Source of the DNA: a virus
Length of the DNA stretch: 61,030 nucleotides
IMG/VR virus record: IMGVR_UViG_3300030099_002804
Location: 1 to 61,030 of that record
Direction: 5' to 3' (one strand)
Part shown: positions 11,055 to 57,414 of the stretch, in pieces
Layout: every line of letters starts with the position of its first letter
Numbering within the stretch: the first letter of the stretch is position 1
Made by a program: the position numbers and the translations under genes
Notes under the pieces: model-generated
The model's database searches: none
The model's input: the letters and a program-made list of their open reading frames with translations, nothing else
What the model was told of the DNA's origin: nothing

Positions 11055-11154
11055 ATATATCAGTAAGGTACTGCCCCCGGCTCAGTAATAGAGAGAAAAA
11101 AAGAAAGAAAAGAGAGAGCCCCCCAGTGGAGCGAACTCCACTGAAGGGCGGCTT
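11055..11154. repeat. intergenic cassette 2: TATA-CAGTAAG, GA tract, hairpin
   Basis: ATATATCAGTAAGGTACTGC begins at 11055, nearly identical to cassette 1, followed by CTCAGTAATA, a GA/A-rich tract (11090-11118) and a hairpin AGTGGAGcgaaCTCCACT. The hairpin plus pyrimidine run on the minus strand suits a terminator for the 11196 gene. The TATA suits a promoter for 10776. Confidence 0.7.
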
Positions 11155-13314: not shown

Positions 13315-13384
13315 TATATATCAGTAAGACTTCACTTATCACGGCTCAGTAAGAGAGAGAGAGAAAAGAGAGAGAGAGAGAACC
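13315..13384. repeat. intergenic cassette 5: TATA-CAGTAAG, GA tract
   Basis: TATATATCAGTAAGAC (13315-13330), CGGCTCAGTAAG, then a GA tract (13352-13382). On the plus strand it is followed by direct repeats and a terminator hairpin at 13417, so it could give an RNA of about 110 bases with no gene in it. On the minus strand it provides the promoter for 12812. Confidence 0.7.
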
Positions 13385-13416
13385 CTATCATGAACGGCTT
13401 TACCTATCATGAACGG
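13384..13416. repeat. 14-base direct repeat, two copies
   Basis: CCTATCATGAACGG occurs at 13384-13397 and again at 13403-13416. The start-to-start spacing of 19 bases is about two helical turns. Such spacing suits a protein binding both copies on one DNA face. It lies between the GA tract and a terminator-like hairpin. Confidence 0.6.
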
Positions 13417-13417
13417 G

Positions 13418-13447
13418 CCGCCGACCCCCTCTCGGCGGGTGTTTTTT
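13418..13447 (+). terminator. hairpin plus T6 terminator with no gene upstream
   Basis: CCGCCGA/TCGGCGG stem around CCCCCTC, followed by GTTTTTT. It is oriented for plus-strand transcription, yet no plus-strand gene lies between 12604 and here. This suggests that the cassette 5 region is itself transcribed as a non-coding RNA. Confidence 0.6.
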
Positions 13448-13459
13448 GACCCCCTTGAG

Positions 13460-13498
13460 TATTTAAAGAACCGAACATGTTCGTTAATTCTTTATACC
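13460..13498 (+). promoter_or_regulatory. double TATA with 12-base palindrome (operator candidate)
   Basis: Two TATA-like boxes, TATTTAAAG (13460-13468) and TTTATACC (13491-13498), flank the perfect palindrome CGAACATGTTCG (13472-13483). A protein bound at the palindrome would sit where polymerase assembles from the first box. This is the only clear promoter before the amidoligase fusion gene, some 430 bases downstream. Confidence 0.6.
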
Positions 13499-13499
13499 A

Positions 13500-13682
13500 A
13501 CAGGGGGTATTCCGAGATTGCCCGCAAGGGCCGAAGCAATCGGACGCACATCCGAATTGAGGGAACCCCACTCAACCAAGCGCAAGTGCGGGGGGTTGTC
13601 GCTCTCAACACAAGTCCTACGGTGAAAATCCGTAGGCACCCTAGGTATCGCCACAGGCCTCAGTCGCTAGGGATAGGAGGAC
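13500..13682 (+). ncRNA. putative structured RNA or long structured leader
   Basis: Gene-free but rich in complementary segments: TCCGAgaTTGC (about 13511) with GCAATCGGA (about 13534), GGGCC-type inner pairs around a GCAA loop, AACCCC with GGGGTT (about 13563 and 13596), GCGCaagTGCG (about 13580), and a perfect 7-bp hairpin CCTACGG-tgaaaat-CCGTAGG (about 13617-13637). It ends in AGGAGG. It could be a riboswitch-like leader for the downstream ligase gene or an independent RNA. No known RNA family was recognised with confidence. Confidence 0.5.
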
Positions 13683-13817
13683 ATGATTACTCACCATGTC
13701 ACCATGTCAATTCGAGCGTTTAGCCTTGGCATGATACGGTCTGAAGGACCACGCTATGTTCCAACATGGGACCTCATGAATCCTCCTTCGTTCTTTTTTC
13801 AAATCCTATTCACCTAG
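13683..13817 (+). CDS. possible 44-residue leader peptide
   Basis: ATG directly after AGGAGG (spacing only two bases, shorter than usual) begins MITHHVTMSIRAFSLGMIRS and continues EGPRYVPTWDLMNPPSFFFQ. It is a plausible short gene or leader peptide between the structured region and the large ligase gene. No homologue known to me and no motif beyond an aromatic C-terminus, so it may be spurious. Confidence 0.3.
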   Translation: MITHHVTMSIRAFSLGMIRSEGPRYVPTWDLMNPPSFFFQILFT

Positions 13818-13909
13818 ATTGAGGAGATGCAATTCAATGATTCAATCAATCCAACTCCCTGTCCGACGATATACAAAGTCGGGTCACAGGCGAGGAGCGT
13901 GAAATGTAA

Positions 13910-16432
13910 ATGCAAACAACAACAACAACAGGAAATATACTGTTGGACCTAGTTGTGGTATTGTTGGCACTATTGCCAATTATGATGCCACTTCTTGCTG
14001 TCCTAACAGTACTGAGAAATGAACGAATGAACATGCGAATAGGTCTTGAGATTGAAGCAATCAAGAAGGCCCACATTCGTGAGTCACCACATGAGAAGAT
14101 GGCACACTGGATAATGAAGTGTGATGAGAAGATGTTGAAACTAATGTCCTCTCGAACACGGAAAACCATTCGTGCCCTCAAAGTCTCATTCCGTGGCTAC
14201 ACTCACGAAGTCATGAGCGAAACGAAGATTGTCACAGACTCATCATTGAGTCGTGGCGGCTTTGAGATTGTGTCACCCCCACTAATCGGGCGTGGCGTGG
14301 TTATGTCGTGGATTAGTCGGATGATGTCACACCTTCGAGGCGTGGCTGAAGTCGATAGGTCATGCGGCCTTCATGTCCATGTGGGTCTGAAGGACTACGG
14401 CGCAAGGGCAAACCCCGTCGAGTTAGGCTTTACCGAGCCTTCAGACAACCTTAGTCCCGAGGACTACGCCAAGGCCGTTACAGGCCGTGTGGCGTGGGCT
14501 TACGGGTACTTTCAACATGCAATCAATCTGATTGTTAGCCCAAGCCGCCGTGACGGTGAATGGAGCCGTAATGTCTCCTACATCAGCCAACAATATCGCA
14601 ACCCAAGCGAAGTACGCTTCGCCCAGCGAAAGTGGAATGATGAACATGGAATGTATGTCCGAGAATGGCATACCGAAACCGACCCCGCAAAGGTTGGCAT
14701 GGTATTCTATGACCGACTGTACGAAGGTAATCCCGACTACGGTGACTCTCGCTATCAGTGCGTAAATCCTCAATCACTACCGAAATACGGTACGATTGAG
14801 TTTAGAGCGCACCAAGGCACCACAAACGCAACCAAGATTCAGAATTGGGTGCAATTTTTGCACCTACTGGTCAGCCGTTGTGCGAGTAACTATTGGACCG
14901 ACATCACCAATTTCCGTGGTGACTCAATCCATGACCTATTCACTTGGCTTGGTTTGGCAGACGATGACCCACTCTATGTGGCTATGGTTCGCCGTATCAA
15001 GGCACTGAATGGAAACAACCCTAGTGTATTCCGTAATGACCCAATCTTGGCACACAACGCACTTTTCAAGGAGAGCGTAGTTTGCTCCCGATGTGGTTCG
15101 GCTTCTTGTGACTCAGATGAAGTGTGTGGCACCAACTACACACAAGATTTGATGGAGGAAACCGAGGCTCACTTTTTGGACTTGGATAGGGCATGCGATA
15201 CATGTGGCACATTACTTCGGGAAACCGAAGCACACATGCGCTATGACTACGGCGACCATCATGAAGCACACTGCCCTAACTGCGGCGATATGAGAGTGTT
15301 CAACGCTATGGGAGGAGTTATCCTCTCAGTCATGCTTGGCACCCTACCACTCGCACTGGTTATTGTAGGATGTGGCATTGGTGCCATACATGCGGCGGCT
15401 AAGACCTTCAAGGCCAAGCGATTGTCAACTAGACTCTTCAAGGCATTATCAGCCCGAGGCAAACAAGCCTCGGGCTTTGCCTTTGAGAATGGAAAGGGAG
15501 TGTACTATGTGAAAGCACCACACTCCTCAATCGCTATGGCTCACCATGTCCCGAAGCAACTACGCAAGCAAACTCAGTGGAGTATGTTTCACACCCGCTT
15601 CGCAACTCATGGTGCCAACAACAAGGCAAACGCTCACCCTCACTTTGGTCGCAAGGCTAAGGTAACGCTAGTACACAACGGCGTCGTACACAACCACGAC
15701 GATGTATGGATGGCATTGGGCGAGAAGCCTACTGGCCCTGTGGACTCACAGGCCGTAGCACAGTGCCTAGAAGTTGGTGGTATCGAGAAGGTAGTCGAGT
15801 TATGCAAGGGCTCAATGTCCTTGATTTGGTCTGATAATCGTGACCCACAAGGTACCCTCAAGTGCTGGACTAATGGAGGCAATCCATTGGTTATGGGTCG
15901 CATAGACGACGCAAGCAACGGCCCCGTAGTAATTGCCTCAACTGAGGCACTACTCAAGGAGGGATGTGGCAAGCGACTCAAGACACATTGGGATGCAACC
16001 ATAGGGCGTGAATACACAATCTCGCCTACCGGTAGCATCAGCAAGCGTGACATCGAGGGCAGTGAAGCAACCGCCGGGGTCGTCTATGATTGGCGCACCT
16101 ACAAGGTCGATGACTACTACTACACCTACGGCGCAAACTACTCGACTACCAAGACCAAGAAGCGACACCTACCTTATCGCATCAAGCAAATTGCGAAGAA
16201 GGAGTTAGAGCGCCTTGGTAGTTGGGAGCCAATCGAAGGCAAATGGGATGGCTTCGACCTTCATACCTTCAGTGGCATCCACGCCGCTAAATGGGATAAG
16301 GATGGCAAGCCCTTGACCTACGCACTACCGCAGTACATCAACCCGATGCACTATGATAGTGACCTTGAGGAGATACTCATGGGGTCGCACAGACCCGATG
16401 AGTTGGACTCATGCACATATGAGGCCCCTTGA
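13910..16432 (+). CDS. membrane-anchored amidoligase-like / class II glutamine amidotransferase fusion
   Basis: 840 residues. Residues 9-35 form a membrane helix. Residues about 43-350 match the amidoligase (Amidoligase_2, glutamine-synthetase-like COOH-NH2 ligase) pattern: GLEIEA (45-50), FEIVSPPLI (118-126), CGLHVHVGL (152-160) and TIEFRAHQGT (295-304). Eight cysteines in CxxC pairs (392-458) make zinc knuckles. Residues 465-487 are strongly hydrophobic and run straight into CGIGAI, where C488 aligns with the N-terminal nucleophile of class II glutamine amidotransferases. The rest of that domain is intact: HTRFATHG (561-568), NAHPH (574-578), HNG (589-591) and D612, with spacings close to GlmS. 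Predicted role: release ammonia from glutamine and form an amide or peptide bond using ATP. C488 is internal, so proteolytic release or an internal start would be needed for canonical chemistry. Function is inferred; the target is unknown. Confidence 0.85.
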   Translation: MQTTTTTGNILLDLVVVLLALLPIMMPLLAVLTVLRNERMNMRIGLEIEAIKKAHIRESPHEKMAHWIMKCDEKMLKLMSSRTRKTIRALKVSFRGYTHEVMSETKIVTDSSLSRGGFEIVSPPLIGRGVVMSWISRMMSHLRGVAEVDRSCGLHVHVGLKDYGARANPVELGFTEPSDNLSPEDYAKAVTGRVAWAYGYFQHAINLIVSPSRRDGEWSRNVSYISQQYRNPSEVRFAQRKWNDEHGMYVREWHTETDPAKVGMVFYDRLYEGNPDYGDSRYQCVNPQSLPKYGTIEFRAHQGTTNATKIQNWVQFLHLLVSRCASNYWTDITNFRGDSIHDLFTWLGLADDDPLYVAMVRRIKALNGNNPSVFRNDPILAHNALFKESVVCSRCGSASCDSDEVCGTNYTQDLMEETEAHFLDLDRACDTCGTLLRETEAHMRYDYGDHHEAHCPNCGDMRVFNAMGGVILSVMLGTLPLALVIVGCGIGAIHAAAKTFKAKRLSTRLFKALSARGKQASGFAFENGKGVYYVKAPHSSIAMAHHVPKQLRKQTQWSMFHTRFATHGANNKANAHPHFGRKAKVTLVHNGVVHNHDDVWMALGEKPTGPVDSQAVAQCLEVGGIEKVVELCKGSMSLIWSDNRDPQGTLKCWTNGGNPLVMGRIDDASNGPVVIASTEALLKEGCGKRLKTHWDATIGREYTISPTGSISKRDIEGSEATAGVVYDWRTYKVDDYYYTYGANYSTTKTKKRHLPYRIKQIAKKELERLGSWEPIEGKWDGFDLHTFSGIHAAKWDKDGKPLTYALPQYINPMHYDSDLEEILMGSHRPDELDSCTYEAP

Positions 16433-24949: not shown

Positions 24950-25255
24950 ATGAGAAGAAAACAATTACATATTTTTGCAGACAAGGTGGCGGCTATGCTT
25001 TTGGAGAACCCAAAGGGATTGTCGTCATACGAGATATACAATAGACTTGCTGACGATAGAAGCAACATGAGATGGCTACCAGCACGAAACACCATAGGCT
25101 CACGCCTGTCAAACATTATTGGTGTGGAACAGGTAGGCCAATCATTCGAGGCATTCCGGGCACACGACTTGGCTCCCGGCAGACAGGTTGTGTTATGGAG
25201 ATTAGACATAGAGCGATTCAATGAGTGGAGGTTTGGTAATGAGCCAACTCGGTGA
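24950..25255 (+). CDS. winged-helix-like DNA-binding protein
   Basis: 101 residues. MRRKQLHIFADKVAAMLLEN, then PKGLSSYEIYNRLADDRSNM with the helix-turn-helix core and a wing of the type SRLSNIIGVEQVG. Pattern shared with the small proteins at 28444, 30165 and 32002 (helix, xLSxxxIxxxL, then a short strand pair). Probably regulates virus genes or assists replication. AGGTGATA precedes the ATG. Confidence 0.65.
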   Translation: MRRKQLHIFADKVAAMLLENPKGLSSYEIYNRLADDRSNMRWLPARNTIGSRLSNIIGVEQVGQSFEAFRAHDLAPGRQVVLWRLDIERFNEWRFGNEPTR

Positions 25256-28788: not shown

Positions 28789-29392
28789 ATTGAATGATGA
28801 AGCGGATAACACTGACTTCTTGGCCGCCCTTGAGTGGGTGTTAACTCCCGATGGTTGCCCCATGTGTGCGGTTGCTAATAGGCGAGAGTTAGAAGTCAAG
28901 GTTCATCGTGGAGAAGTAACCCCTACATTCTTAGAAACTAAGAATGGTTGGCCTACCGGCACCGTTATGTCCCACATGGATGAACACCTTGAGTATGACC
29001 CTGCCGAAGCGGCATACATGGAGAAGATGCGTGGTGAATCCATATCCACTCTCAATGTAGCCGAGGACTTAGCCCAGCGACTTGTGTCTTGGGTTGGTGA
29101 ATTGGAAACACGCAAGGAAACTGAAGGTCTGACATCTGAGTGGATTGGTGATGCAACCAAACTACTCGGGCAGGGACAAGGGTTCCTCAAGTTGATAGGT
29201 CAACTCAAGAAGGAGATTGGTGTTGATTCACAACTCCTACTGGCTGACCGTAAAGTTGAGCAGATGATGGGCATACTTGTTGATGTTCTCAAGAGCGAGC
29301 CTGTGTATTTAGACCAAATACAACTGCGTCTTGCTACACTAACTGCTCCGACTCAGCATATACAAGAGGCTGACTTCGAGGTGATTGAATGA
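28760..29392 (+). CDS. 210-residue helical protein, possible small terminase-like
   Basis: MKSRRQIQNRLNDEADNTDF; the middle has HRGEVTPTFLETKNGWPTGT followed by VMSHMDEH, reminiscent of the helix-turn-helix plus central helices of terminase small subunits, and a C-terminal oligomerising helical region (LGQGQGFLKLIGQLKKEIGV). A CPMC pair near the start may bind zinc. It is far from the large terminase, so the role is uncertain; an unrelated regulator is equally possible. Confidence 0.5.
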   Translation: MKSRRQIQNRLNDEADNTDFLAALEWVLTPDGCPMCAVANRRELEVKVHRGEVTPTFLETKNGWPTGTVMSHMDEHLEYDPAEAAYMEKMRGESISTLNVAEDLAQRLVSWVGELETRKETEGLTSEWIGDATKLLGQGQGFLKLIGQLKKEIGVDSQLLLADRKVEQMMGILVDVLKSEPVYLDQIQLRLATLTAPTQHIQEADFEVIE

Positions 29393-30168
29393 GTGACGAA
29401 TTAGTATGTATGATTTGCGGCTTTGCTTGTGATGCGGACGACCCCGAAAGGATGGATATACACATGGATGCCTACCATATGGACACCGAGTTGCTTGAGC
29501 AAGTTGACGAGGGTTATGAATACCCCGACAAGCAATTGAATACAGTTTATTCAAGTAACCAAGAGGCTATGGATAGCATTATGAAAGTTTATGGGCGTGA
29601 AGGTATGATTGTAGCCGATGTTACATATGGTTCCGGTGTATTTTGGAAAAACATAGACACCAGTAAGTATGCCTTTTTCCCTTCGGACTTGAAAACCAAC
29701 GGGGTTGATTTTACAGACCTGCCTTATGAGGATAACTCGATGGATATTGTAGTGTTTGACCCACCATATAGATACACTCCATCTAATAATAAACAAACAC
29801 ATCATGCCGAGCGTTACGAATTGAAGCCGCACATGAATATACGAACCACTAAAGATGTGATAAACTTGTATCGCTTAGGTATAGCCGAGTGTGAGCGTGT
29901 TCTCAAGAAGGGGGGATTCTTAATCATAAAGTGTATGGATAACATAGAGGCGGCGAAGCAGTATTGGGTTCACATTGATGTGATGGGCATGGGTGACGAC
30001 TTAACCTGTCGAGATTTGGTAGTAGTTACTCCACCTTCGACCGTTGCTTCAAGATGGAAAAGGCAGAAGCATTTGAAGAAGTCGCACTCTTATTTCATAG
30101 TAATGCGTAAGGGCGGTGCTTGGCCCTTCGGCCAAAAGGCTACTTCTCGTAGGCAGGTGGTTGAATGA
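29389..30168 (+). CDS. DNA methyltransferase with N-terminal C2H2 zinc finger
   Basis: 259 residues. Residues about 6-28 form a C2H2-like finger: CMICGFACDADDPERMDIHM ending in AYH. Then a class I methyltransferase: motif I region IVADVTYGSGVFW (SAM-binding), motif IV DPPYRYTP, preceded by SMDIVVF, and later FLIIKCMDN. DPPY is typical of N6-adenine or N4-cytosine methylases. No target-recognition domain is obvious; the finger could supply DNA contact. ATGA overlaps join it to both neighbours. It probably protects virus DNA from host restriction. Confidence 0.85.
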   Translation: MSDELVCMICGFACDADDPERMDIHMDAYHMDTELLEQVDEGYEYPDKQLNTVYSSNQEAMDSIMKVYGREGMIVADVTYGSGVFWKNIDTSKYAFFPSDLKTNGVDFTDLPYEDNSMDIVVFDPPYRYTPSNNKQTHHAERYELKPHMNIRTTKDVINLYRLGIAECERVLKKGGFLIIKCMDNIEAAKQYWVHIDVMGMGDDLTCRDLVVVTPPSTVASRWKRQKHLKKSHSYFIVMRKGGAWPFGQKATSRRQVVE

Positions 30169-30820: not shown

Positions 30821-31479
30821 TTATTTTTACAAACGATGACGCAAGATACCGCAAGGGTGATTTCATATGTATGTATGGCGAGATTACAGTGCCTCCTACT
30901 ACACCCGATACCACATTTATCCTTCATAACAAGTCATTCAGCGAGGCTGATGTCCTATACTGGGCACCAATCATACGACACCGCTTGGTAGTAGTGGTTG
31001 ACAAGTTGCCTAAGTTGAGTGAAGCAAGCGAGGACTATGTTATCATAGACCAAGCACTGAAGGTTAAGGATAAGGACTTCACTCGTTCTATTCGTGCGGC
31101 TCTATGTTGGGTTGACCGTGACCGAGCGTTGACCGCACTTAGACCTGTCCCTCTTGCTTTGATGAACGCTTTCATCAAGGCTAATGTGGATAACATGCAG
31201 GTCGGCAGGTTGCTTGCTCGATGCCGATTTACTTTGCATGATGACTATACCCGAGCAGTTATGGCATACGGTATTTATCCTGTATCTAATTTCAAGTGGC
31301 CTAAGAAGTCACATAACAATACTAATATACTGCCGAGCGAGATGAGAAGAACAGACAAGCACTTGGGTGTCATACTGAATAATGACATCGTAGTATCTAA
31401 TGCAATCCGTAGGGATGCACCGGACACTTTGCCCAAAGGCTTGCCTAAACGAAAACAGAAGGCGATAGAATGGCTATGA
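30811..31479 (+). CDS. 222-residue unknown protein of replication module
   Basis: MGVVIFTNDDARYRKGDFIC, LYWAPIIRHRLVVVVDKLPK, then a helical region (FTRSIRAALCWVDRDRALTA and LMNAFIKANVDNMQVGRLLA) that resembles the lid and collar helices of clamp-loader-like proteins, without a P-loop. It might replace the missing large clamp-loader subunit, but this is speculation. Overlaps neighbours at both ends. Confidence 0.65.
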   Translation: MGVVIFTNDDARYRKGDFICMYGEITVPPTTPDTTFILHNKSFSEADVLYWAPIIRHRLVVVVDKLPKLSEASEDYVIIDQALKVKDKDFTRSIRAALCWVDRDRALTALRPVPLALMNAFIKANVDNMQVGRLLARCRFTLHDDYTRAVMAYGIYPVSNFKWPKKSHNNTNILPSEMRRTDKHLGVILNNDIVVSNAIRRDAPDTLPKGLPKRKQKAIEWL

Positions 31480-31826
31480 ATGAAGTATTTGTGTATGGAA
31501 CACTGAAGCGAAACCAACATAACAATGACCTACTTCGTGATTCACAATTCTTAGGTGAATACGAAACCGACCCACGCTGGGGCTTAGTAACACTGGGGTC
31601 TTTCCCCGGCATGGTTCCCGGCAACTTGGCGGTAAAGGGTGAAGTATTTTTGGTGGATGATGATGTATTGGAGGCTCTCGATTTATTAGAGGGTGTGGAG
31701 CATGGCCTGTATAACAGGCACCGCATCCCTATTAACTGTCCTGTGACGGGCGAGAAGCGTAATGTGTGGGCTTATCTATACGGTGGTATAGTGTATATGC
31801 CCGACATCTTCGAGGAGTGGTCTTGA
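31470..31826 (+). CDS. gamma-glutamylcyclotransferase-like (GGCT/AIG2) protein
   Basis: 118 residues. VYGTLKRNQ at 7-15 is the substrate-loop signature of the GGCT/AIG2 family, followed by GSFPGMVPG, KGEVFLVDDD and LDLLEGVEHGLYNR, whose Glu is the likely catalytic acid. These enzymes convert gamma-glutamyl-amine compounds to 5-oxoproline plus free amine. In genome surveys, GGCT-like proteins accompany amidoligases and class II glutamine amidotransferases; this genome carries such a fusion at 13910. Overlaps both neighbours. Confidence 0.85.
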   Translation: MAMNEVFVYGTLKRNQHNNDLLRDSQFLGEYETDPRWGLVTLGSFPGMVPGNLAVKGEVFLVDDDVLEALDLLEGVEHGLYNRHRIPINCPVTGEKRNVWAYLYGGIVYMPDIFEEWS

Positions 31827-42204: not shown

Positions 42205-42933
42205 ATGCTAGTGGTGGATGACCGAGAGAATGACCTTTTGATTCACAAACTATATGCGTCTATGGGCCGCCATGATGAAGGCGGTCATGTTAAAGTCAAG
42301 CGGCTACCTTCTGCCGATTATGTTATCGGGGAGATAGGGATAGAGGCTAAGGAGATAAATGACTTGTATCATTCTATCATGGGTCACGGTCGCTCTCGCA
42401 CAATCATTGGGCAGTTGGTGGATTTACAGGAGTCATTTGAGCGACCTATGTTAGTAGTCTATGGCACCAAGTTGAAGCCGTATCTGCCGGGCAGAAGGCC
42501 CAATCGTGCTGAGATTGCTAAAGAGATGAAAAAGATGCAAGCAGTAATCAAGAAGTTTAAGCAAAACTTCGTGATTCAATTCCCAAACATTCAATTCATG
42601 GAGTTATCAAGTATGGATGATATGGTGGATTGGTTATCATCTGTGCATCACAATCTGCGTATTAGACAGAAGCCTATATCTGAACCTGCCGAAAGAACCC
42701 GCCGAAGCAATCGCAAGGTGGACTTGCGTGTTAGAGTCCTTGCCGCAATTGACGGCATCTCGGAGAGAGCAGCCCATGATTTGTTAACCGAGTTTGGCTC
42801 TATTCCACGCCTGTTGCGCTCTCGCACAAGCCAGCGAAAACTCATGGAGATAGAGGGTATAGGTCGTAAAAGAGCCAAGGCTATTTTATCCCTGCGTGAA
42901 CGCTACCCCGACCAGCCCGACCGTCACTCGTAA
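42205..42933 (+). CDS. XPF/ERCC4-type nuclease with HhH domain
   Basis: 242 residues. Nuclease: VVDDREND, SADYVIGEIGIEAKEINDLY (GDY..ExKxxxDL form of the ERKxxxD motif, with EAKEIND). Then two helix-hairpin-helix units: IDGISERAAHDLLTEFGSIP and IEGIGRKRAKAILSLR. Acts on branched DNA or flaps. Its last 10 bases overlap the tail of the convergent tail-tip gene. No helicase domain (short, MUS81/XPF-like archaeal form). Confidence 0.9.
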   Translation: MLVVDDRENDLLIHKLYASMGRHDEGGHVKVKRLPSADYVIGEIGIEAKEINDLYHSIMGHGRSRTIIGQLVDLQESFERPMLVVYGTKLKPYLPGRRPNRAEIAKEMKKMQAVIKKFKQNFVIQFPNIQFMELSSMDDMVDWLSSVHHNLRIRQKPISEPAERTRRSNRKVDLRVRVLAAIDGISERAAHDLLTEFGSIPRLLRSRTSQRKLMEIEGIGRKRAKAILSLRERYPDQPDRHS

Positions 42934-45900
42934 CTCATTTGGTTGGACTGACTATCGCCGGACACAGAACGGCTATCAAACCCTACCTGTATGTTGTGTA
43001 GTGTTACGCTACTGTATTGTGCAGTATCGGGAGATACACCTGCGGCACGACTAATTTTAATCTCGATAGTGTTATTCGGTATATCTAAGCCGTCTAATCC
43101 ACCATTAAATAATGTCACAGAAGAATTGGTACCCACTGCTAAAGTAACAGTTCTATTAGCAGTAGCGCCGGTTTCGACACACTTTACTTCTATATCCAAA
43201 GAAGCAACACCGCTTGCGGCACCTAATGTGTACCTACCCATTATGTTTGCTTGCCTACTGTTGCTATTTTGAGGGACTCTAACCACTGTTGTGAACTCGT
43301 TATACGCTTGGGCCGCATCAGTAGCACCAGCAAAAGACATTCCGTTGCTAGTCATAACTGCGTCACCCGAGGATGGGGTGATGAATGAATCCACACCCTC
43401 AACTCCCGATGTCTTTTTTGGTGCAATCGCTGGCTTCTTTTGACCCAAAACTGCGAAGTTACCACCCAAAACGCTGTCATTGTTGAACTCCATACTACCC
43501 TTAATTTTGTTACTAAGCCCACTACTCAATATGTTACTACTAATAGTCTTGGGTGAGTTACTAGATAAGTTAGTACCATCCACATTAGGCCCGGTACCTA
43601 CCTGTGTTAGTGGATTAAAGTCCACGCCAGTAGTAGTCCCAAACCCAACTCCGCTAGTACCGCTACTATTCCAAGCACCACTAACAGGAGTACCGCCAAA
43701 TCCACCCCAATCAAATGTACCGGAGCCTTGGGGTTTAGATGTATCACCACTGGGCCCGCCCCTACCACTTGTGCCACTACCGGGGGTCTGTGTTCCCCCC
43801 TTGTTAGTTGCTGGCAAAAGCAAAGAAGCGAAGTTCTGAATGCTTCTGCTAACATCTCTCTCTAGTGTTAATTGTACTTGTTGCCTATCGGCACCCCTAG
43901 CAGACCACTGTACCTGCTTGATACCCATAACTTCATTACTTAATTCTAATACCGAGTCCGTGTATGAAACTTGAGTTCCCGGTACAAAGTTTATATCGTC
44001 ACAGATGTGCAAGCGAGGAGCGTACCACTCAGACCTGCGCCCCATATAATTTACTTCAGTCTCATTCCACTTTCTCATCCCAAGAGGGAATAGACTATCT
44101 CCATTTATAGTTGAGTGAGTCGAGCCACCATAAACACTACCATTTGCTAATGTTCCTGTACCACACCTATTCTTTGCTACCGCTAAAAGATAGTCATAAT
44201 TAACTGATAGTACAATTCTTTCAGTGCCATCTCGACCTGTCCAATATGTGCTAGGAATATCTATTTCATAATAACCGTTTGAATCAACCGAAACGCTGGT
44301 GCTACTTCTTGCGCTTGCTACGAAATCTCTATCTGTCCAATCGTAGTCTATTAGTCGCACCCTAAAGACTGGATTTATTGCAGTAGCGGCGTATGAATCA
44401 ATTGTACCGTCACCTACTTCAACAACAAATCTCAGTTTGCCGTCTGCATTTATGTTTGAACCAGCAGGTGTTTTCATTGTTGTTTTTGGCATGTCCCTTG
44501 GTATGTGTACTACCTGCAAAGCATAACTCAAAGATGCCGCACCATACCAATAATACATTATATCATATGTTTTTTGTGTCATAGGGATTATGTAATTAGA
44601 GTTACCATCCCTACCGTTAAGAGCAGACACCATACCGGGGAATAGATTGCCTCCCCATATGCTAGTCCATGCCCACGCTTTATCCTCCACATAAGAACCA
44701 CCTGTGCCATATGTTCTCGGGATGGTTCTTGATTGGTCGGCAATATAACCGTATCTTGCTCCATTAACCATCATGTCATCAAGACCGGACATTCTGTAAC
44801 TATTGTCGAAGTTCAGTATTTGAGCGTCTATTGTCAACGGTGCCCCCTTATTCTTCTCATATTCTGCCTTTGCTACTGCCAGTGCTTCTGCATTCGTAGT
44901 TACAGAAGGCATATTGAGTATCTCCCAGCGTGGAGTTTCGCCCAAAGTGGGGGTAGGGTAGTCAACAAATGACCCACCAGCACCATAAAACACCCTAACA
45001 TTGGTGATTTGTTTGTTGGACTGAGTGTTGAGGGTGGAAACCCTAACATTATCTCTATTAAGAGCCAAGTTCATATCATAGTTTGGTCTGTATGAGGGCT
45101 TAGAGTCACGCCCCATCAACCATGAGAATACCTGTCTAACTCCATTAGTTCCTCCTAAACCAGCAAGTGATTGTGAACTTGAGTATATTGTAGTTATTGT
45201 AGTGTTTCTGCAATCATTTACGCCGCCGAAATCATCAACCGAATTAGTCAATCTCCACCTACCAAAAGAACCCGACCCTGCTACTGATGTAGTGTTGGGT
45301 ATGGTAAAAGTATCATTAGCAGGTACCGCAGTGATTACTTCAGTCTTAGTTTTTCCTAATAGGCTGATTCTTTCACTATCTATTACTGTAACACTGTCGC
45401 CTACGGACAAGCCGTGTGGTACTCCTGTGGTAAAGGTGGATGAACCACTACTAGGGGCGGTTATCGCCGTGATTATCCCTCCCCTACCAGTGGTGTTACA
45501 GTCAGTAAATACTGTTGCCATATCCCTTGTGATTGGTACTGTGCTAATATCGTGCATACCGTATAGTCTTGATTGGCTTATCCAATTCTTAGTTAGACAA
45601 TCTAAGTACGACATTCGCAACTTTTCACTATCCCACCAAGTACCACTTGCTTTGTTTTCAATAAACCCGTTAAGTGCCATAATAAGGCGCATAGGAAACA
45701 CATTACCTAACCCACCATAAACAAGAGCGTCTGTGTATGAGTTTTGGTTGTCGGGGTTTAGTGAAATACCTATCTCCGCTTCGTTATTAGGTATTGTTAT
45801 ACTACCAGTAGCACCGGTGTATGTTAAATAAAATGCAGCGTTAACGCTACCGTAACCCTCCCCATTCCATTCGCCAGCAGTAGTGGTGTTTTTTACAGGC

Positions 45901-48900
45901 ATACCTAACGATAATAATGTTCTCAATGGTCGTGTGTTTAAGGCATCTAATTTACCTGTGCCCGCACTAATAGTAACACCCGCATCAATAGCAATTGTCA
46001 GCGTGGTTGTTGCCGCATAGGGTGTTGCTGGGTTAACTGCATTTATACGAGATATTGTGTAGTCCCCATCTATACTCGGAGTAGTTGTGCTATCTCTAAT
46101 CGTAATTTTATGACCGGTCCTGTACATATGGCCTATTCTATTAACTGCACCCGAAGTATCTGTGATTGTGACAAACCCTGCGCCGTCTGCCGCAAATGAA
46201 ACTGCTCTATCCTTAAACGGATAAGCCGAACCATCCCATGTTCCGGTTGCACTATAGGTTGCGAAGTGGAAAATTGTATTTTTTTCCTCGGAACGGATTT
46301 GACCTACTTGTGTGTCAATTGGAGGCAACACGCTTGCGTTAGTCAATTGTATAATCTTATCACCAATCTCTATTTCAGTTTCTAATGTAGTAGGGTCATT
46401 TACTAGGTAAATGTAATTACTATTCCACGAACTACTGTTAACTATGTTTTCGTATGTGGTTGGGGCTTTAGTCCAATAGTTGTCAATTAAAACAGGGAAC
46501 CCTTCAGTTTCCACTAGGTAATCACCAATCTCCTTTCGCCCTCCCGAAGCCTGTCCGGTTTTACCACCGTTGCTAACAGTGTTTAGGTTGAAAAACTTTG
46601 AGGAATCTATGATAACAAAGGAACCACCTTTTTCCTCCCAGTTATGGTACTTAGTGTTAGATTCGTCATTAGAGGCACCGGTGGCACTGCTCCACGGATT
46701 ACCTGTTATGGGGTCAGTAGTAGCATCAATCTCCCAAATATCAACATCTTCGCCTATTTTCAAATCAACAAATCTTTCCCTATCCTGTACTGCTGATATG
46801 TTTGTGTCAGCGATACCCAAAGACAATTCGTAGTTGCCCGAATAAGGTGTCATCAAACCAAACTGCTTTTTCCTACGAGAGTTGTCTGCATCAGCACTGC
46901 CATCATTACGCATGTCGGCCCAAAGAACCCAAATGTGTTTATAATCATTTTTATCGAGCCTTCTTATTGCATAATTAGAACCCGAAGGGTGGCTACGCTG
47001 GAAAAAGTTGGTTTCGGGCAAAGTCAAAACAGTTTGCCCGTATTTGATTGTAACTCCAGTGTATTCATCATTTACTCGATAGTCATTAGGTATGGTATTA
47101 TTTCCAGCAATCACTTGAGCATTAGTTTGAGTAGGTAATCCGGTATCTTGATATGCGGTATTTGGACTAACTGCTCCAGTAGGGCTATTCGTTTGCCCTA
47201 TCCATCTAAATTGACCGTTAAGTACACCACCCGAACCGGATGAATCATTAGGCCCAAATCTTCTCATACGATAAGCCCAATAATCCACGCCATCAATTGT
47301 TAATTCCCTAGGGTGATTACCGAGAGGAGTTCCGGGTATATATGATGTCTCATTCATGGCTAATGTGTATGACTCAAGCATTACCGATGGCAACCCACCA
47401 CCCTCGATAGTCATAGTATCTGTGTTTAGTCCTATGTCGCCGTGATTTGCATATGCTGTTTTTGGTACAAATAACATTATTTCGTAAATATAACCGGTGT
47501 AGTCGGGGGCTGTTGCGCCATACTTATTGATTAACTTGTAATAGTGTCTGCTGTTGGCTTGTGTGGCAGATGCGTTAGGGTCGGACAAAATCCTTCCTTC
47601 ATACACCCTAACTATACAATTTGTTACCGTATTGGTAGTGCTTATGCCTGTATAAACTCCCGAATCAACAAATAAGTCATCGTCAATAAACTCAATACTA
47701 CCAGTGGAACTAAGATTGGTCGCTACTCCGTTTATTGTTATTGTTGTGTCGCCGGGAGTGAAGTCTGAAGAAGTGGTGCTTATGCTCCTCCAACCGTTAT
47801 TACCGTTACGAGCAGTTCCGTAGTATGTTGTATCTCGCCCTAATACATTCATAGGAGTTTTTTCGATTTTGGAAAATAAGTGTGTGAACCACGGAGATAG
47901 TCTTAGGTCTTTTATCCATCTTGAGTGAATGCTGCGATATGCTGTGTCTGCGGTAGCATGGCCGCCTGTGATAGCCGAATCCCAATCATCATAAGCGTCA
48001 TTTGGCCCTTTTGTATCTTCACCGGAATACATCTGAATAGGGTGGGCAGACCTGTTCCTCATCCTACTATCCAAATGCCATTTCCATGTACCCGTTCCGT
48101 CTTGTACTTCATTGAAACCTAAGTCTTGGTTTGCTGATTCTAGTAGGGATGCACCGAAGTAATAAGCGTTAAGTTGATTTTGTGCCTCGCTTCTATCATA
48201 AGCCACTTGTGCGGTAGTGTCACCTTCTGCTCCTTGACCCATTTCCCATGTAGGTAATTGAGTATCAAGATTAGCGAAATAATCAACTGCATTAATCTTC
48301 ACCGTTGGGGTTCTCCCATTACCATCTTGCGAGTATGACATTCCCGTTATGCCGCCTCTCCATAGGGGGCGGTCAATACGATTATGGAACATTAACAAAG
48401 ACCATTCGGAGTAGGATGATTGATTAAAGAATGAAATTAACTTTAGTTGAGCATCGTCATCCACTACACTAACCGATAAACTAGAGGATGCGTTAGTTGT
48501 TGCGGTACAGTCGAAGTCAACTGCGGGTGGCATTTCGGTAGTGCTTAGTGGGTAGTCGTTTAGTGGTCTAATCAACCCTACTCTATCAATCAACACGCTA
48601 ACTTTTTTTGCCGCCTTCTTAACATCTAACTCCCAACCGTACATATCAGCCGCAGTGAATTGAGAACCGTCGGCCTTCGTTCCTATTGAGTTACCTGTCG
48701 ATACAGATGCGCCATTTTTAACGATGTCATATGTCCCTGCGGTGTAGTTCATAATGAAGTCGTAATCATCCCATAGAGTGTCCATACTGGTTCCGGCATA
48801 TGTAGTCATCTCTTGGAACCCTATGGGTGTTATTTCGTAATCAATAGCGGCTCTTGTGTAACCAGTATCTCCACTAACAGTTGATGTAAAAGCAGTGCCT

Positions 48901-49850
48901 TCACAACCAATACGAAGTCTAACTCTTGCTAAAGTAGTATCTATTGCCATAGGACAGATACGAATAGTGAATATATCTCCATCACCCTTGCTATTTAATG
49001 TACCATCGTATGAAATAATTGGGTCGTATGAAGTAGTTGAGTTTTGATAGACTTCGGTAACTAAGAATGGTTTGCCGCTTGGGGACTCGATAGGCATTAG
49101 TGCCGCTTTAGGCATTCCGTTATTCAAAGCGTCGTTAAAGGGTACTTCGCCGGAATAAACACCGACTAAGTTGGTTCTAACTATTTTGGCTGGTGCCGCT
49201 AAAACTGCTGATGGAGAACTCATAGGCATACCGGACTCCGGTTCTAAGGCCGGTGAAATCCCACCCGAGTTATACATTGGGTCGTGCATAGATGCCCTAC
49301 CAAATGTGGAGTCGTTGCTACCAGTTGCTACATAGTATCTTTTAGATGTGTCATATCCGTTACACATTATCAAATACCCCTCCACTGCCGCATAGTTAGA
49401 TTTACTAGTGTCAGTTTCGTATGCTTTGGTAGCACCGCCAATAACCCCAGTACCGCCGTCAAACTTTTGGCGATTGGCGTTTGTTAGGGAATCCGGGTAT
49501 TCTAGTTGTGCAAGCCCATCCCATTTGCCGGGGTTGTTTCGGTTAATATCCAGTGTAGCCCACTCGCTAACACCTTTGTTGAATGTGTATTGTATAGAAG
49601 AGGCCACGCTACTATTGTTAAATCTTGCAGAATCTCCGTCACCACGCTCGACCCAAGCGTAGGTATATCTTGGGTTCAAAGTAGCCCAGCCGTTAATAGG
49701 GTTGCCGTGATGTGTTTTAGAAGAATACCATGTTAAAGCAGGTCTATTTTCGTCATCGGGGACTGTTCGTGCCGCCATAAAATCGTCATAGTAACCAGCC
49801 AACCAAAATGTGTATTTGCCTTCATCTATACTTCTAACCATTCTTTTCAC
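42924..49850 (-). CDS. giant tail tip / baseplate hub protein
   Basis: 2308 residues, directly downstream of the tape measure gene, where the host-contacting tail tip is found. The middle part has RPLWRGGITGMSYSQDGNGR, a form seen in siphovirus tail hub (gp37/ReqiPepy6-like) proteins, and a later part VPGTQVSYTDSVLELSNEVM is hub-like. The whole is Gly/Ser/Thr/Asn-rich with repeated beta domains; the C-terminal region is low-complexity (GTSGRGGPSGDTSKPQGSGT) then a beta-sandwich. It probably binds the host surface. Single open frame, no frameshift. Confidence 0.75.
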   Translation of the reverse strand: MKRMVRSIDEGKYTFWLAGYYDDFMAARTVPDDENRPALTWYSSKTHHGNPINGWATLNPRYTYAWVERGDGDSARFNNSSVASSIQYTFNKGVSEWATLDINRNNPGKWDGLAQLEYPDSLTNANRQKFDGGTGVIGGATKAYETDTSKSNYAAVEGYLIMCNGYDTSKRYYVATGSNDSTFGRASMHDPMYNSGGISPALEPESGMPMSSPSAVLAAPAKIVRTNLVGVYSGEVPFNDALNNGMPKAALMPIESPSGKPFLVTEVYQNSTTSYDPIISYDGTLNSKGDGDIFTIRICPMAIDTTLARVRLRIGCEGTAFTSTVSGDTGYTRAAIDYEITPIGFQEMTTYAGTSMDTLWDDYDFIMNYTAGTYDIVKNGASVSTGNSIGTKADGSQFTAADMYGWELDVKKAAKKVSVLIDRVGLIRPLNDYPLSTTEMPPAVDFDCTATTNASSSLSVSVVDDDAQLKLISFFNQSSYSEWSLLMFHNRIDRPLWRGGITGMSYSQDGNGRTPTVKINAVDYFANLDTQLPTWEMGQGAEGDTTAQVAYDRSEAQNQLNAYYFGASLLESANQDLGFNEVQDGTGTWKWHLDSRMRNRSAHPIQMYSGEDTKGPNDAYDDWDSAITGGHATADTAYRSIHSRWIKDLRLSPWFTHLFSKIEKTPMNVLGRDTTYYGTARNGNNGWRSISTTSSDFTPGDTTITINGVATNLSSTGSIEFIDDDLFVDSGVYTGISTTNTVTNCIVRVYEGRILSDPNASATQANSRHYYKLINKYGATAPDYTGYIYEIMLFVPKTAYANHGDIGLNTDTMTIEGGGLPSVMLESYTLAMNETSYIPGTPLGNHPRELTIDGVDYWAYRMRRFGPNDSSGSGGVLNGQFRWIGQTNSPTGAVSPNTAYQDTGLPTQTNAQVIAGNNTIPNDYRVNDEYTGVTIKYGQTVLTLPETNFFQRSHPSGSNYAIRRLDKNDYKHIWVLWADMRNDGSADADNSRRKKQFGLMTPYSGNYELSLGIADTNISAVQDRERFVDLKIGEDVDIWEIDATTDPITGNPWSSATGASNDESNTKYHNWEEKGGSFVIIDSSKFFNLNTVSNGGKTGQASGGRKEIGDYLVETEGFPVLIDNYWTKAPTTYENIVNSSSWNSNYIYLVNDPTTLETEIEIGDKIIQLTNASVLPPIDTQVGQIRSEEKNTIFHFATYSATGTWDGSAYPFKDRAVSFAADGAGFVTITDTSGAVNRIGHMYRTGHKITIRDSTTTPSIDGDYTISRINAVNPATPYAATTTLTIAIDAGVTISAGTGKLDALNTRPLRTLLSLGMPVKNTTTAGEWNGEGYGSVNAAFYLTYTGATGSITIPNNEAEIGISLNPDNQNSYTDALVYGGLGNVFPMRLIMALNGFIENKASGTWWDSEKLRMSYLDCLTKNWISQSRLYGMHDISTVPITRDMATVFTDCNTTGRGGIITAITAPSSGSSTFTTGVPHGLSVGDSVTVIDSERISLLGKTKTEVITAVPANDTFTIPNTTSVAGSGSFGRWRLTNSVDDFGGVNDCRNTTITTIYSSSQSLAGLGGTNGVRQVFSWLMGRDSKPSYRPNYDMNLALNRDNVRVSTLNTQSNKQITNVRVFYGAGGSFVDYPTPTLGETPRWEILNMPSVTTNAEALAVAKAEYEKNKGAPLTIDAQILNFDNSYRMSGLDDMMVNGARYGYIADQSRTIPRTYGTGGSYVEDKAWAWTSIWGGNLFPGMVSALNGRDGNSNYIIPMTQKTYDIMYYWYGAASLSYALQVVHIPRDMPKTTMKTPAGSNINADGKLRFVVEVGDGTIDSYAATAINPVFRVRLIDYDWTDRDFVASARSSTSVSVDSNGYYEIDIPSTYWTGRDGTERIVLSVNYDYLLAVAKNRCGTGTLANGSVYGGSTHSTINGDSLFPLGMRKWNETEVNYMGRRSEWYAPRLHICDDINFVPGTQVSYTDSVLELSNEVMGIKQVQWSARGADRQQVQLTLERDVSRSIQNFASLLLPATNKGGTQTPGSGTSGRGGPSGDTSKPQGSGTFDWGGFGGTPVSGAWNSSGTSGVGFGTTTGVDFNPLTQVGTGPNVDGTNLSSNSPKTISSNILSSGLSNKIKGSMEFNNDSVLGGNFAVLGQKKPAIAPKKTSGVEGVDSFITPSSGDAVMTSNGMSFAGATDAAQAYNEFTTVVRVPQNSNSRQANIMGRYTLGAASGVASLDIEVKCVETGATANRTVTLAVGTNSSVTLFNGGLDGLDIPNNTIEIKISRAAGVSPDTAQYSSVTLHNIQVGFDSRSVSGDSQSNQMSYE

Positions 49851-55772: not shown

Positions 55773-56864
55773 TTACCGATGTAGCATGTTTAATTGACGC
55801 ATGTATGTCAATTCCATACGGTGAACGCAGATAACTTCGTCATTATCCATTTTAGTATCGAAGGTAATAGAGTAATCGGTTAGGCTATCAGTCGTGCCTT
55901 TAAGCCCGGTGTTAGTATAGATTTCATCGAAAGCATCACCAGCAATTTCCATACCTTGACGGTATGCGTTTTTGTAATCTGTGCCTCGGGTAGTTATAAA
56001 CAGGACTAAGGTGAAAAATTGCTTGATTCTTGTACCACCTATTGTGTCAAAGTTTGGTGAATCCATCTTCTGTAAAATTACATGAATGCTGGGGGGAGCG
56101 ATTCTTGAAATCTGCTGGCTAGATATATCGTAGCCGTATAGGATGGATGAATCATCAACAAGGTTTTTGATAAAGAATCGCTTGCTATTCTGCAATAGAT
56201 TTACCACTGAAAGACCCATACGAATAAGACTGTCAGATACAAAGGCACTTGTGGATAATTCATCAGGACTGAACGCACCCATGTTGGTAGTATAGACATT
56301 ATTCCATAGAATCGTTCCATCGTCATTCCCCCACTGTATCTTCTTGGATGAACCTGCACTGCCTGTCACTTCAAGATAGTTGGTAGCCGCTAAATCATCT
56401 TCAACTATCTCTCTCATATACAAACGGGCTTTACCGGTCGCACTATCTAGTGTTAGGCGAAGCATGATAGGCACTGCCTCGAAACCATCTGCTTGTGCTA
56501 AATCTAACTCTCTCGATGTAACAGTAGTAGTGCCTACTAATTTTAGAGTCTGTGAATTGCCGGTAGCATGGACTTCAACCTTGTGTGTTCCGTTATCTAA
56601 TTTCATAAGAACGGTGCCGTCAGATGGTGCCACCGAGTATTTGAAACAAACAACAAGAGTATAGTCATCAGTTGTTGGGGTTACATGCCAAAGTTGACCG
56701 CTACCTGCACTAGCAATCTGCCAAGCCTCGCCAACGGCCGAGCCATCACCGCCTGTTCCTGTTAAGGTAAAGGACTCGTTATCTTGCCCATAGTCGGTTA
56801 GGTTTGATGGGTCGCCACCATTCATACGAGAAGTCCAGTATTGATTAGTAGTTGATATTGCCAC
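55773..56864 (-). CDS. lectin-like (LamG/ConA-like) domain fused to tail terminator-like domain
   Basis: About 363 residues from the GTG at 56864, the only start near the previous gene with a purine-rich site; upstream codons also open. N-terminal 150 residues: YTLVVCFKYSVAPSDGTVLM, VEVHATGNSQTLKLVGTTTV, LRLTLDSATGKARLYMREIV, a jelly-roll pattern. C-terminal half: PSIHVILQKMDSPNFDTIGG, TRIKQFFTLVLFITTRGTDY, like tail completion proteins. The combination suggests a terminator that also contacts the capsid or host surface. Confidence 0.65.
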   Translation of the reverse strand: MAISTTNQYWTSRMNGGDPSNLTDYGQDNESFTLTGTGGDGSAVGEAWQIASAGSGQLWHVTPTTDDYTLVVCFKYSVAPSDGTVLMKLDNGTHKVEVHATGNSQTLKLVGTTTVTSRELDLAQADGFEAVPIMLRLTLDSATGKARLYMREIVEDDLAATNYLEVTGSAGSSKKIQWGNDDGTILWNNVYTTNMGAFSPDELSTSAFVSDSLIRMGLSVVNLLQNSKRFFIKNLVDDSSILYGYDISSQQISRIAPPSIHVILQKMDSPNFDTIGGTRIKQFFTLVLFITTRGTDYKNAYRQGMEIAGDAFDEIYTNTGLKGTTDSLTDYSITFDTKMDNDEVICVHRMELTYMRQLNMLHR

Positions 56865-57414
56865 GGCCACCACCCCACGCCTCGTTAAAAGCATCTATTA
56901 TTGCCGCCTCAATCTGCGGGCTAACTGCATCTCTCGCTTTGCTCAACCAATCAATTGATTTGAAACCGGGATGCACCATGTTATTACCAGTTTTAGCGTT
57001 GATAAATCCATCACCAGCACCAAAAGTTAGACTATTGTCTATTGTTTTGAATGTGAACGGGTAGTCAAACTTAGGGGAGCCGTACTCAAGATACTGTGCT
57101 AATTTACCACCACGGGAACCTGTAACACCGCCTTCATCAATAGGGTCGGAACCAAAACGCACTTCTGCTTTTTGATTGTGATTTTCACCTATTTCCACTA
57201 TTAGGGAATCTGCTACCTTTTGTGCCATAGCCTGTTGCCTAACTGGTGCGTCACGCTTTATCTGTGACTGTGATGTAGGAATCTGTGCCTTTAGTACATC
57301 GTAAATGGCATCAGCCATAATTTCGGCAGATGTCCTTTCCATCTCCTTGATAGCCGCATCAGTTTGACGGGTATCAATTTCGAGGGAAAATCCCATACCA
57401 AATCTATTTGCCAT
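56845..57414 (-). CDS. HK97 gp10-like head-tail connector
   Basis: 189 residues. MANRFGMGFSLEIDTRQTDA, IYDVLKAQIPTSQSQIKRDA, PVRQQAMAQKVADSLIVEIG then GGKLAQYLEYGSP and PHPFTF-like KFDYPFTFK; the ...LAxYLEYGS... segment is characteristic of gp10-like proteins. Joins the tail to the head. Starts nine bases after the gp6-like gene. Confidence 0.8.
   Translation of the reverse strand: MANRFGMGFSLEIDTRQTDAAIKEMERTSAEIMADAIYDVLKAQIPTSQSQIKRDAPVRQQAMAQKVADSLIVEIGENHNQKAEVRFGSDPIDEGGVTGSRGGKLAQYLEYGSPKFDYPFTFKTIDNSLTFGAGDGFINAKTGNNMVHPGFKSIDWLSKARDAVSPQIEAAIIDAFNEAWGGGRGNINY

Follow-up and report, generated by a model that had tools for sequence, protein, structure and literature searches.

The 61,030-nucleotide stretch of viral DNA analysed here (IMG/VR record IMGVR_UViG_3300030099_002804, positions 1 to 61,030; hereafter the window) encodes, in one open reading frame, an 840-residue protein in which a predicted membrane helix (TM1), an amidoligase, a Cys-rich linker, a second hydrophobic segment, a class II glutamine amidotransferase (GATase) and a C-terminal extension follow one another in that order (Table 1). 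The protein is a conserved new architecture assembled from known parts, and its function is a prediction. We estimate a probability of about 50% that it is a membrane-anchored, glutamine-dependent amidoligase, which is processed at G487-C488 and acts on an envelope substrate together with a gamma-glutamyl cyclotransferase (GGCT). The domains and their predicted folds, the intact active sites, the fusion, its grouping in one clade and the co-distribution with GGCT are directly supported by the data. What is new is a fused, reduced version of known components, predicted to be anchored twice in the membrane, in viruses with archaeal-type replication genes.

Table 1. Positions in the window of the fusion gene, its parts and the GGCT gene
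Feature	Position	Strand	Basis
Shine-Dalgarno GAGGAG of the fusion gene	13892..13897	+	Sequence; a comparable GGAG-type site precedes the TM1 start in most homologues
Fusion gene, 840 aa	13910..16432	+	ORF, motifs, Pfam, 20 further fused homologues
TM1, aa 10-40	13937..14029	+	Hydropathy, flank charge in 17 aligned; AF2 helix 10-40, low confidence
Amidoligase_2 domain, aa 43-350, glutamine-synthetase-like carboxylate-amine ligase	14036..14959	+	Pfam, invariant residues, model
Cys-rich linker, aa 392-458, 8 Cys, probably zinc-binding	15083..15283	+	Sequence; low pLDDT
Hydrophobic segment 2, aa 466-487, predicted membrane-embedded propeptide	15305..15370	+	17/17 aligned; 16-aa leader in L013
Predicted cleavage site G487-C488	15368..15373	+	Inference; residue -1 is Gly in 20/21 fusions
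Class II GATase, aa 488-735; C488, HTRFATHG (R563), HNG (N590 G591), D612	15371..16114	+	Pfam/NCBIfam/PDB, Ntn fold
C-terminal extension	16115..16429	+	Weakly conserved, 18-40% except in closest relative
GGCT (GGCT/AIG2-like)	31470..31826	+	PF06094 78.8 bits, E 6.4e-22; co-distribution

The open reading frame described in the first-pass annotation is present as reported, with an ATG start codon, and all the motifs quoted there occur in the protein sequence. Comparison with a 95% identical relative gave 151 synonymous versus 44 non-synonymous codon changes, indicating purifying selection on the fusion gene. PHROGs and NCBIfam concur with Pfam in the domain assignments, and PADLOC returned no defence-system match. 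In the full-length AlphaFold model (mean pLDDT 74.6), the amidoligase and GATase regions mostly reach pLDDT values of 75-94, and the linker and membrane parts are of low confidence. The eight cysteines that had been called zinc-knuckle residues all lie in the linker, which probably binds zinc; four of them are kept in at least 90% of the members, 4-5 are left in distant members, and the linker is shorter in the homologues L101 and L102. Upstream of the gene, positions 13350-13700 form a non-coding region that is conserved in the closest viruses and contains two hairpins (folding z -2.7). The first of these keeps its pairing in four viruses via compensatory changes (CCTACGG/CCGTAGG, CCATGAG/CTCATGG and CCTTGGG/CCCAAGG); Rfam gave no match for the region, which could be a regulatory RNA. 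A GA-rich tract is also repeated in the intergenic regions near 11055, 11596, 12772, 13352 and 17166, and in relatives.

IMG/VR was scanned, within its records and as far as short peptide patterns reach, using both the full-length protein and alignments of the individual domains. The amidoligase-GATase fusion in one protein turned up in 20 additional contigs, at 30-95% identity. In all fusions the amidoligase, hydrophobic segment 2 and the GATase follow in that order in one frame, and TM1 is present as well in the 17 that were aligned in full. In a maximum-likelihood tree of the GATase domain, all 22 rows (the fusions plus L013) fall on one side of a branch with a support of 95/96. L013 is a re-split relative (positions 9689-12069 of L013), in which the amidoligase and GATase frames overlap by TGATG, and it nests inside the fusions. 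Since other phages generally carry the two genes as a split pair, one may ask whether assembly or gene prediction has joined two genes artificially; however, with 21 contigs that each have one open frame and form one tree group, this explanation was ruled out, and the chance left to it is negligible.

The viruses of the fusion clade are tailed and have a common gene order around the terminase, portal and nuclease genes. Among the contigs retrieved with a terminase query, 15 combine at least 68% terminase identity with sufficient sequence upstream, and every one of them carries the fusion. Four sister genomes of 60-72 kb, in which terminase identity is 57-60%, have most of the core genes in common with the clade but lack the fusion. 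Consistently, PF12224 scored over its cut-off in eight fusion-clade records and in none of the four sister genomes. A genome-contig scan for a host homologue or provirus, carried out with two short peptide patterns, gave only two distant relatives. Several other genes also differ among these viruses. A 101-residue protein (24950-25255) occurs in 7/7 genomes of the fusion clade but in 0/4 of the sisters, and the gene at 56845-57414 looks clade-specific, although divergence rather than absence is likely there, because the slot in the sister genome G002 is still approximately 0.7 kb long. A DNA methyltransferase (N6_N4_Mtase, 29389-30168) has no match in any of 11 related genomes used for comparison, among them the near twin G001. 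Between the window and G001, the proteins of the regions 42924-49850, 58624-60918 and 1767-2231 are 44-64% identical, versus 95-100% for most of their neighbours, which suggests exchange of host-recognition or tail parts.

For the amidoligase domain, the Amidoligase_2-like assignment proposed in the first-pass annotation is supported by the PF12224 (Amidoligase_2) score of 56.9 bits against a cut-off of 22, by the conserved residues and by the predicted fold. Ten residues (E47, E49, D110, E119, H155, H157, R213, R281, E297 and R299) look catalytic and are invariant in 17/17 aligned sequences; the predicted activity is ATP-dependent amide ligation. By sequence, no significant match was found in the PDB. 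Structure prediction, which had been put forward as a check for both enzyme regions, was performed on a separate amidoligase-only model built from 40 sequences (pLDDT 92.2, pTM 0.90), and it showed a glutamine-synthetase-like fold: the ten best Foldseek matches in the PDB, without exception ligases of this fold or Dop, comprise GshF, a glutamine synthetase homologue, YbdK, Dop, glutamine synthetase and gamma-GCS. The matches are weak but consistent (best E 1.2e-4), and with TM-scores of 0.26-0.39 they hold at the superfamily level only. The ligase diverges faster than the GATase (31-52% versus 48-78% identity among aligned homologues), as expected if the amidoligase recognises a host-variable substrate.

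The class II GATase assignment is likewise well founded. GATase_6 scored 52.9 bits against a cut-off of 27, a phmmer search of the PDB retrieved the GlmS glutaminase 1xff (E 1e-8), and Foldseek placed the region with the glutaminase domains of GFAT, GlmS and PurF (1xff, TMt 0.73), giving the anticipated Ntn-hydrolase fold; the score against the GlmS equivalog TIGR01135 (60 bits) is below its cut-off of 418. The catalytic residues (C, R, N-G and D), whose loss in all homologues had been named in the first-pass annotation as a refutation, are invariant in 17/17 aligned homologues, and the GATase is the slowest-evolving part of the fusion protein in this alignment. Both enzyme activities thus look retained, since the catalytic positions are invariant in 17 homologues at 30-95% identity.

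Translation places the nucleophile Cys488 inside the protein, straight after hydrophobic segment 2; both the segment and this point had been missed earlier. In class II GATases, the N-terminal Cys is exposed by autocatalytic loss of the preceding residues (PMC9140057). Because these enzymes need an N-terminal Cys and Cys488 is internal, cleavage at G487-C488 is predicted, and by analogy with other Ntn hydrolases the natural reading would be autoproteolysis. The sequence of segment 2 drifts (24-64% to the window protein outside the near twin), while its hydrophobicity, Pro480 (16/17 aligned) and the terminal V486-G487 stay. The V and G codons before the Cys vary among the fusions, being synonymous, so selection acts on the protein level at V-G. 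An internal translation start for the GATase was also considered and rejected, as none of the 17 sequences has an ATG, GTG or TTG directly before the Cys, and the Val and Gly codons there vary. Separate GATase genes next to a ligase have the Cys directly after the start Met in 66 of the 71 readable cases. The re-split L013 has retained the segment as a leader: its GATase frame opens with a hydrophobic stretch of 16 residues, MLMLLSLLLPLAILVN, ahead of CGIG, and V-N precedes the Cys; Asn is also found at this position in one fusion, L179.

Two other explanations of the internal Cys have to be weighed at this point. The Cys may never be freed, leaving the GATase inactive as a regulatory or structural module. 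The internal position of Cys488 would fit such a role, but the invariant catalytic residues and the slow evolution of this domain make it quite improbable. Alternatively, segment 2 and V-G-C might be a lipobox, with Cys488 lipidated and the GATase exported as a lipoprotein. The pattern [LIVT]-V-G-C does resemble a lipobox; however, Cys488 is the catalytic nucleophile of the GATase family, the G/A/S of a lipobox at -1 gives way to Asn in L179 and L013, the strongly positive charge after the Cys argues against one, and a glutaminase outside the cell would be uncoupled from the ATP-using ligase. We regard lipidation as highly improbable.

Concerning the membrane topology, the N-terminal membrane helix already recognised in the first-pass annotation was corroborated by hydropathy and by its flanks, which are negative on the N side and neutral or positive on the C side in the 17 aligned sequences; the ligase is therefore predicted to be inside (N-out/C-in). 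Segment 2 likewise has a positive C flank, and since TM1 and segment 2 share this feature, simple membrane spanning by segment 2 conflicts with the positive-inside rule. Our guess is that a re-entrant segment 2, kinked at Pro480, would reconcile the flank charges; the AF2 confidence is low there. The split relatives are mostly without hydrophobic segments at the same cut-off (GATase 1/147, this one being L013; amidoligase 6/173).

The GGCT gene, located approximately 15 kb from the fusion gene, had been overlooked in the first-pass annotation, and with it amidoligase, GATase and GGCT are all present in this virus. It occurs in 9/13 fusion-clade records (the four without it are 23-47 kb fragments) versus 0/13 sister records. 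GGCT is a clean one-gene insertion: in four large sister genomes it is cleanly absent, because the flanking genes are only approximately 170-290 bp apart. Mere divergence as the explanation for the absence of both the fusion and GGCT from the sisters was rejected, since whole records were profile-searched and the GGCT slot leaves only this space. Among the large genomes, eight have both genes and four have neither (Fisher p 0.002), a pattern that amounts to one gain or loss event, because the genomes are related. Judged by this co-distribution, GGCT may be the third component of the system.

The presence of GGCT together with the fusion would also fit a different chemistry, in which the amidoligase would attach an amino acid such as glutamate to an amine carried by a protein or a lipid head group, the GATase would act on the gamma-glutamyl bond as a hydrolase or transferase, and GGCT would remove the tag. 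The nearest folds of the ligase, namely the gamma-glutamyl ligases (GshF, YbdK and gamma-GCS) and Dop/PafA, point the same way. On the other hand, the GATase keeps the GlmS glutamine-binding residues R563, N590, G591 and D612, so that the most straightforward reading is that ammonia is released from free glutamine, and we consider gamma-glutamyl or peptide tagging unlikely.

The replication genes make an archaeal host probable. The best matches of PolB and of the RFC-like clamp loader are haloarchaeal tailed viruses, and the ERCC4 nuclease family matches only archaeal control genomes; the terminase has weak matches to several phages, including phiCh1 and phiH. The designation as an archaeal virus in the first-pass annotation is thus probable from PolB, RFC and ERCC4, as an indirect assignment. 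Such a host may lack peptidoglycan, in contrast to the peptidoglycan-bearing hosts of the known cassette.

This known system is the phage 'peptidoglycan modification' cassette of phiEco32, RIO-1 and LUZ24-like phages, which is predicted to alter the peptidoglycan of the host envelope to block superinfection (PMC5498523, PMC11945000, PMC10580990); Iyer 2009 and Hardies 2013 are cited here as these papers describe them. We found no experimental test of the cassette as a peptidoglycan modifier in the literature. Adjacent amidoligase and GATase genes with GGCT are known from many bacteriophages (PMC5498523, PMC11945000, PMC10580990), and the earlier description of an undescribed system is in this respect not supported in its strong sense. 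Split pairs account for 89 among 140 distinct GATases, a count biased upward because the loci were partly fetched with an amidoligase query. The statement that no such fusion is known in an archaeal virus fares better: the fused architecture was not found in the annotated phages searched, and among the 50 best BFVD matches listed no virus protein convincingly spans both domains. The cassette and our virus share Amidoligase_2, a class II GATase and GGCT in one virus as well as the proposed envelope modification, but here the amidoligase and GATase are fused and membrane-anchored, and GGCT is unclustered, 15 kb off. The phiEco32-type cassette is also larger, with two enzymes besides amidoligase, GATase and GGCT: a COOH-NH2 ligase and one of the ATP-grasp type. 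Neither PF14395 (COOH-NH2 ligase) nor phrog_2599 (ATP-grasp) was found in eight fusion-clade records within the reach of these profiles, which match in a phiEco32-like control, and so the fusion would work like the core of the cassette without being a full member. The same three components are adjacent in the Arthrobacter phages Salgado (97/98/99) and Kovu (96/97/98) in the order GGCT-amidoligase-GATase, yet as three separate genes, with a GATase that starts Met-Cys and without membrane segments in the relatives scanned.

Among characterised enzymes, the GlmS/GFAT glutaminase domain is the closest solved structure to the GATase and has the same catalytic residues, but the isomerase domain is absent from the fusion protein. 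Enzymes of the asparagine synthetase B type couple a class II GATase to an ATP-dependent, amide-making ligase (PMC9140057), whereas the ligase here is glutamine-synthetase-like and placed before the GATase. It resembles glutamine synthetase, YbdK and GshF in its predicted fold, and differs from them in having only about 10% identity, in its membrane anchoring and in its fusion to a GATase.

Class II GATases pass ammonia to a fused or partner synthase or ligase (PMC9140057). In the preferred reading, TM1 would hold the glutamine-synthetase-like ligase at the membrane, and the hydrophobic propeptide 466-487 would be cut off at G487-C488 by autoproteolysis or a protease, freeing the N-terminal Cys. 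The GATase would then split glutamine and supply the ammonia with which the ligase, using ATP, would amidate a carboxylate on a substrate located in the membrane or envelope, and the co-inherited GGCT would act on gamma-glutamyl-amide products or intermediates. The outcome would probably be a changed host envelope, for example for superinfection exclusion, by analogy with bacteriophages, where this is itself a prediction. Here we infer the cleavage, the topology, the ammonia transfer, the substrate and the outcome; the first-pass suggestion of an amide bond formed on a protein or a molecule of the cell surface is a plausible prediction.

The products might instead be small molecules or modified nucleotides or DNA bases. 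Phage amidoligases and GATases have also been suggested to make secondary metabolites (PMC10580990), and the GATase part of the model is matched by a 7-deazaguanine synthase protein from Pantoea phage Vid5. However, no base-hypermodification genes were recognised among the window proteins scanned, bar a single DNA methylase that is specific to this virus, and double membrane anchoring is ill-suited to DNA as a substrate. We therefore hold this alternative to be improbable.

A further, tentative possibility carries envelope modification one step beyond the preferred reading. The protein could be a self-processing membrane zymogen, in which the propeptide keeps the GATase off until G-C cleavage, the ligase and the N-Cys GATase stay together, and an envelope component without peptidoglycan is amidated, with GGCT as the eraser. 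If true, archaea would be subject to envelope modification by an enzyme that a virus encodes, and the enzyme would include a class II GATase equipped with a membrane propeptide.

The fusion fixes the reaction partners, the ligase and its ammonia source, and places the chemistry at the membrane. Only one protein has to be purified, and the prediction to be examined is precise, namely cleavage at G487-C488, so that a long-standing question is opened to direct testing. A reduced, membrane-tied version in viruses with archaeal-type replication genes raises the question whether peptidoglycan is the real substrate of the cassette.
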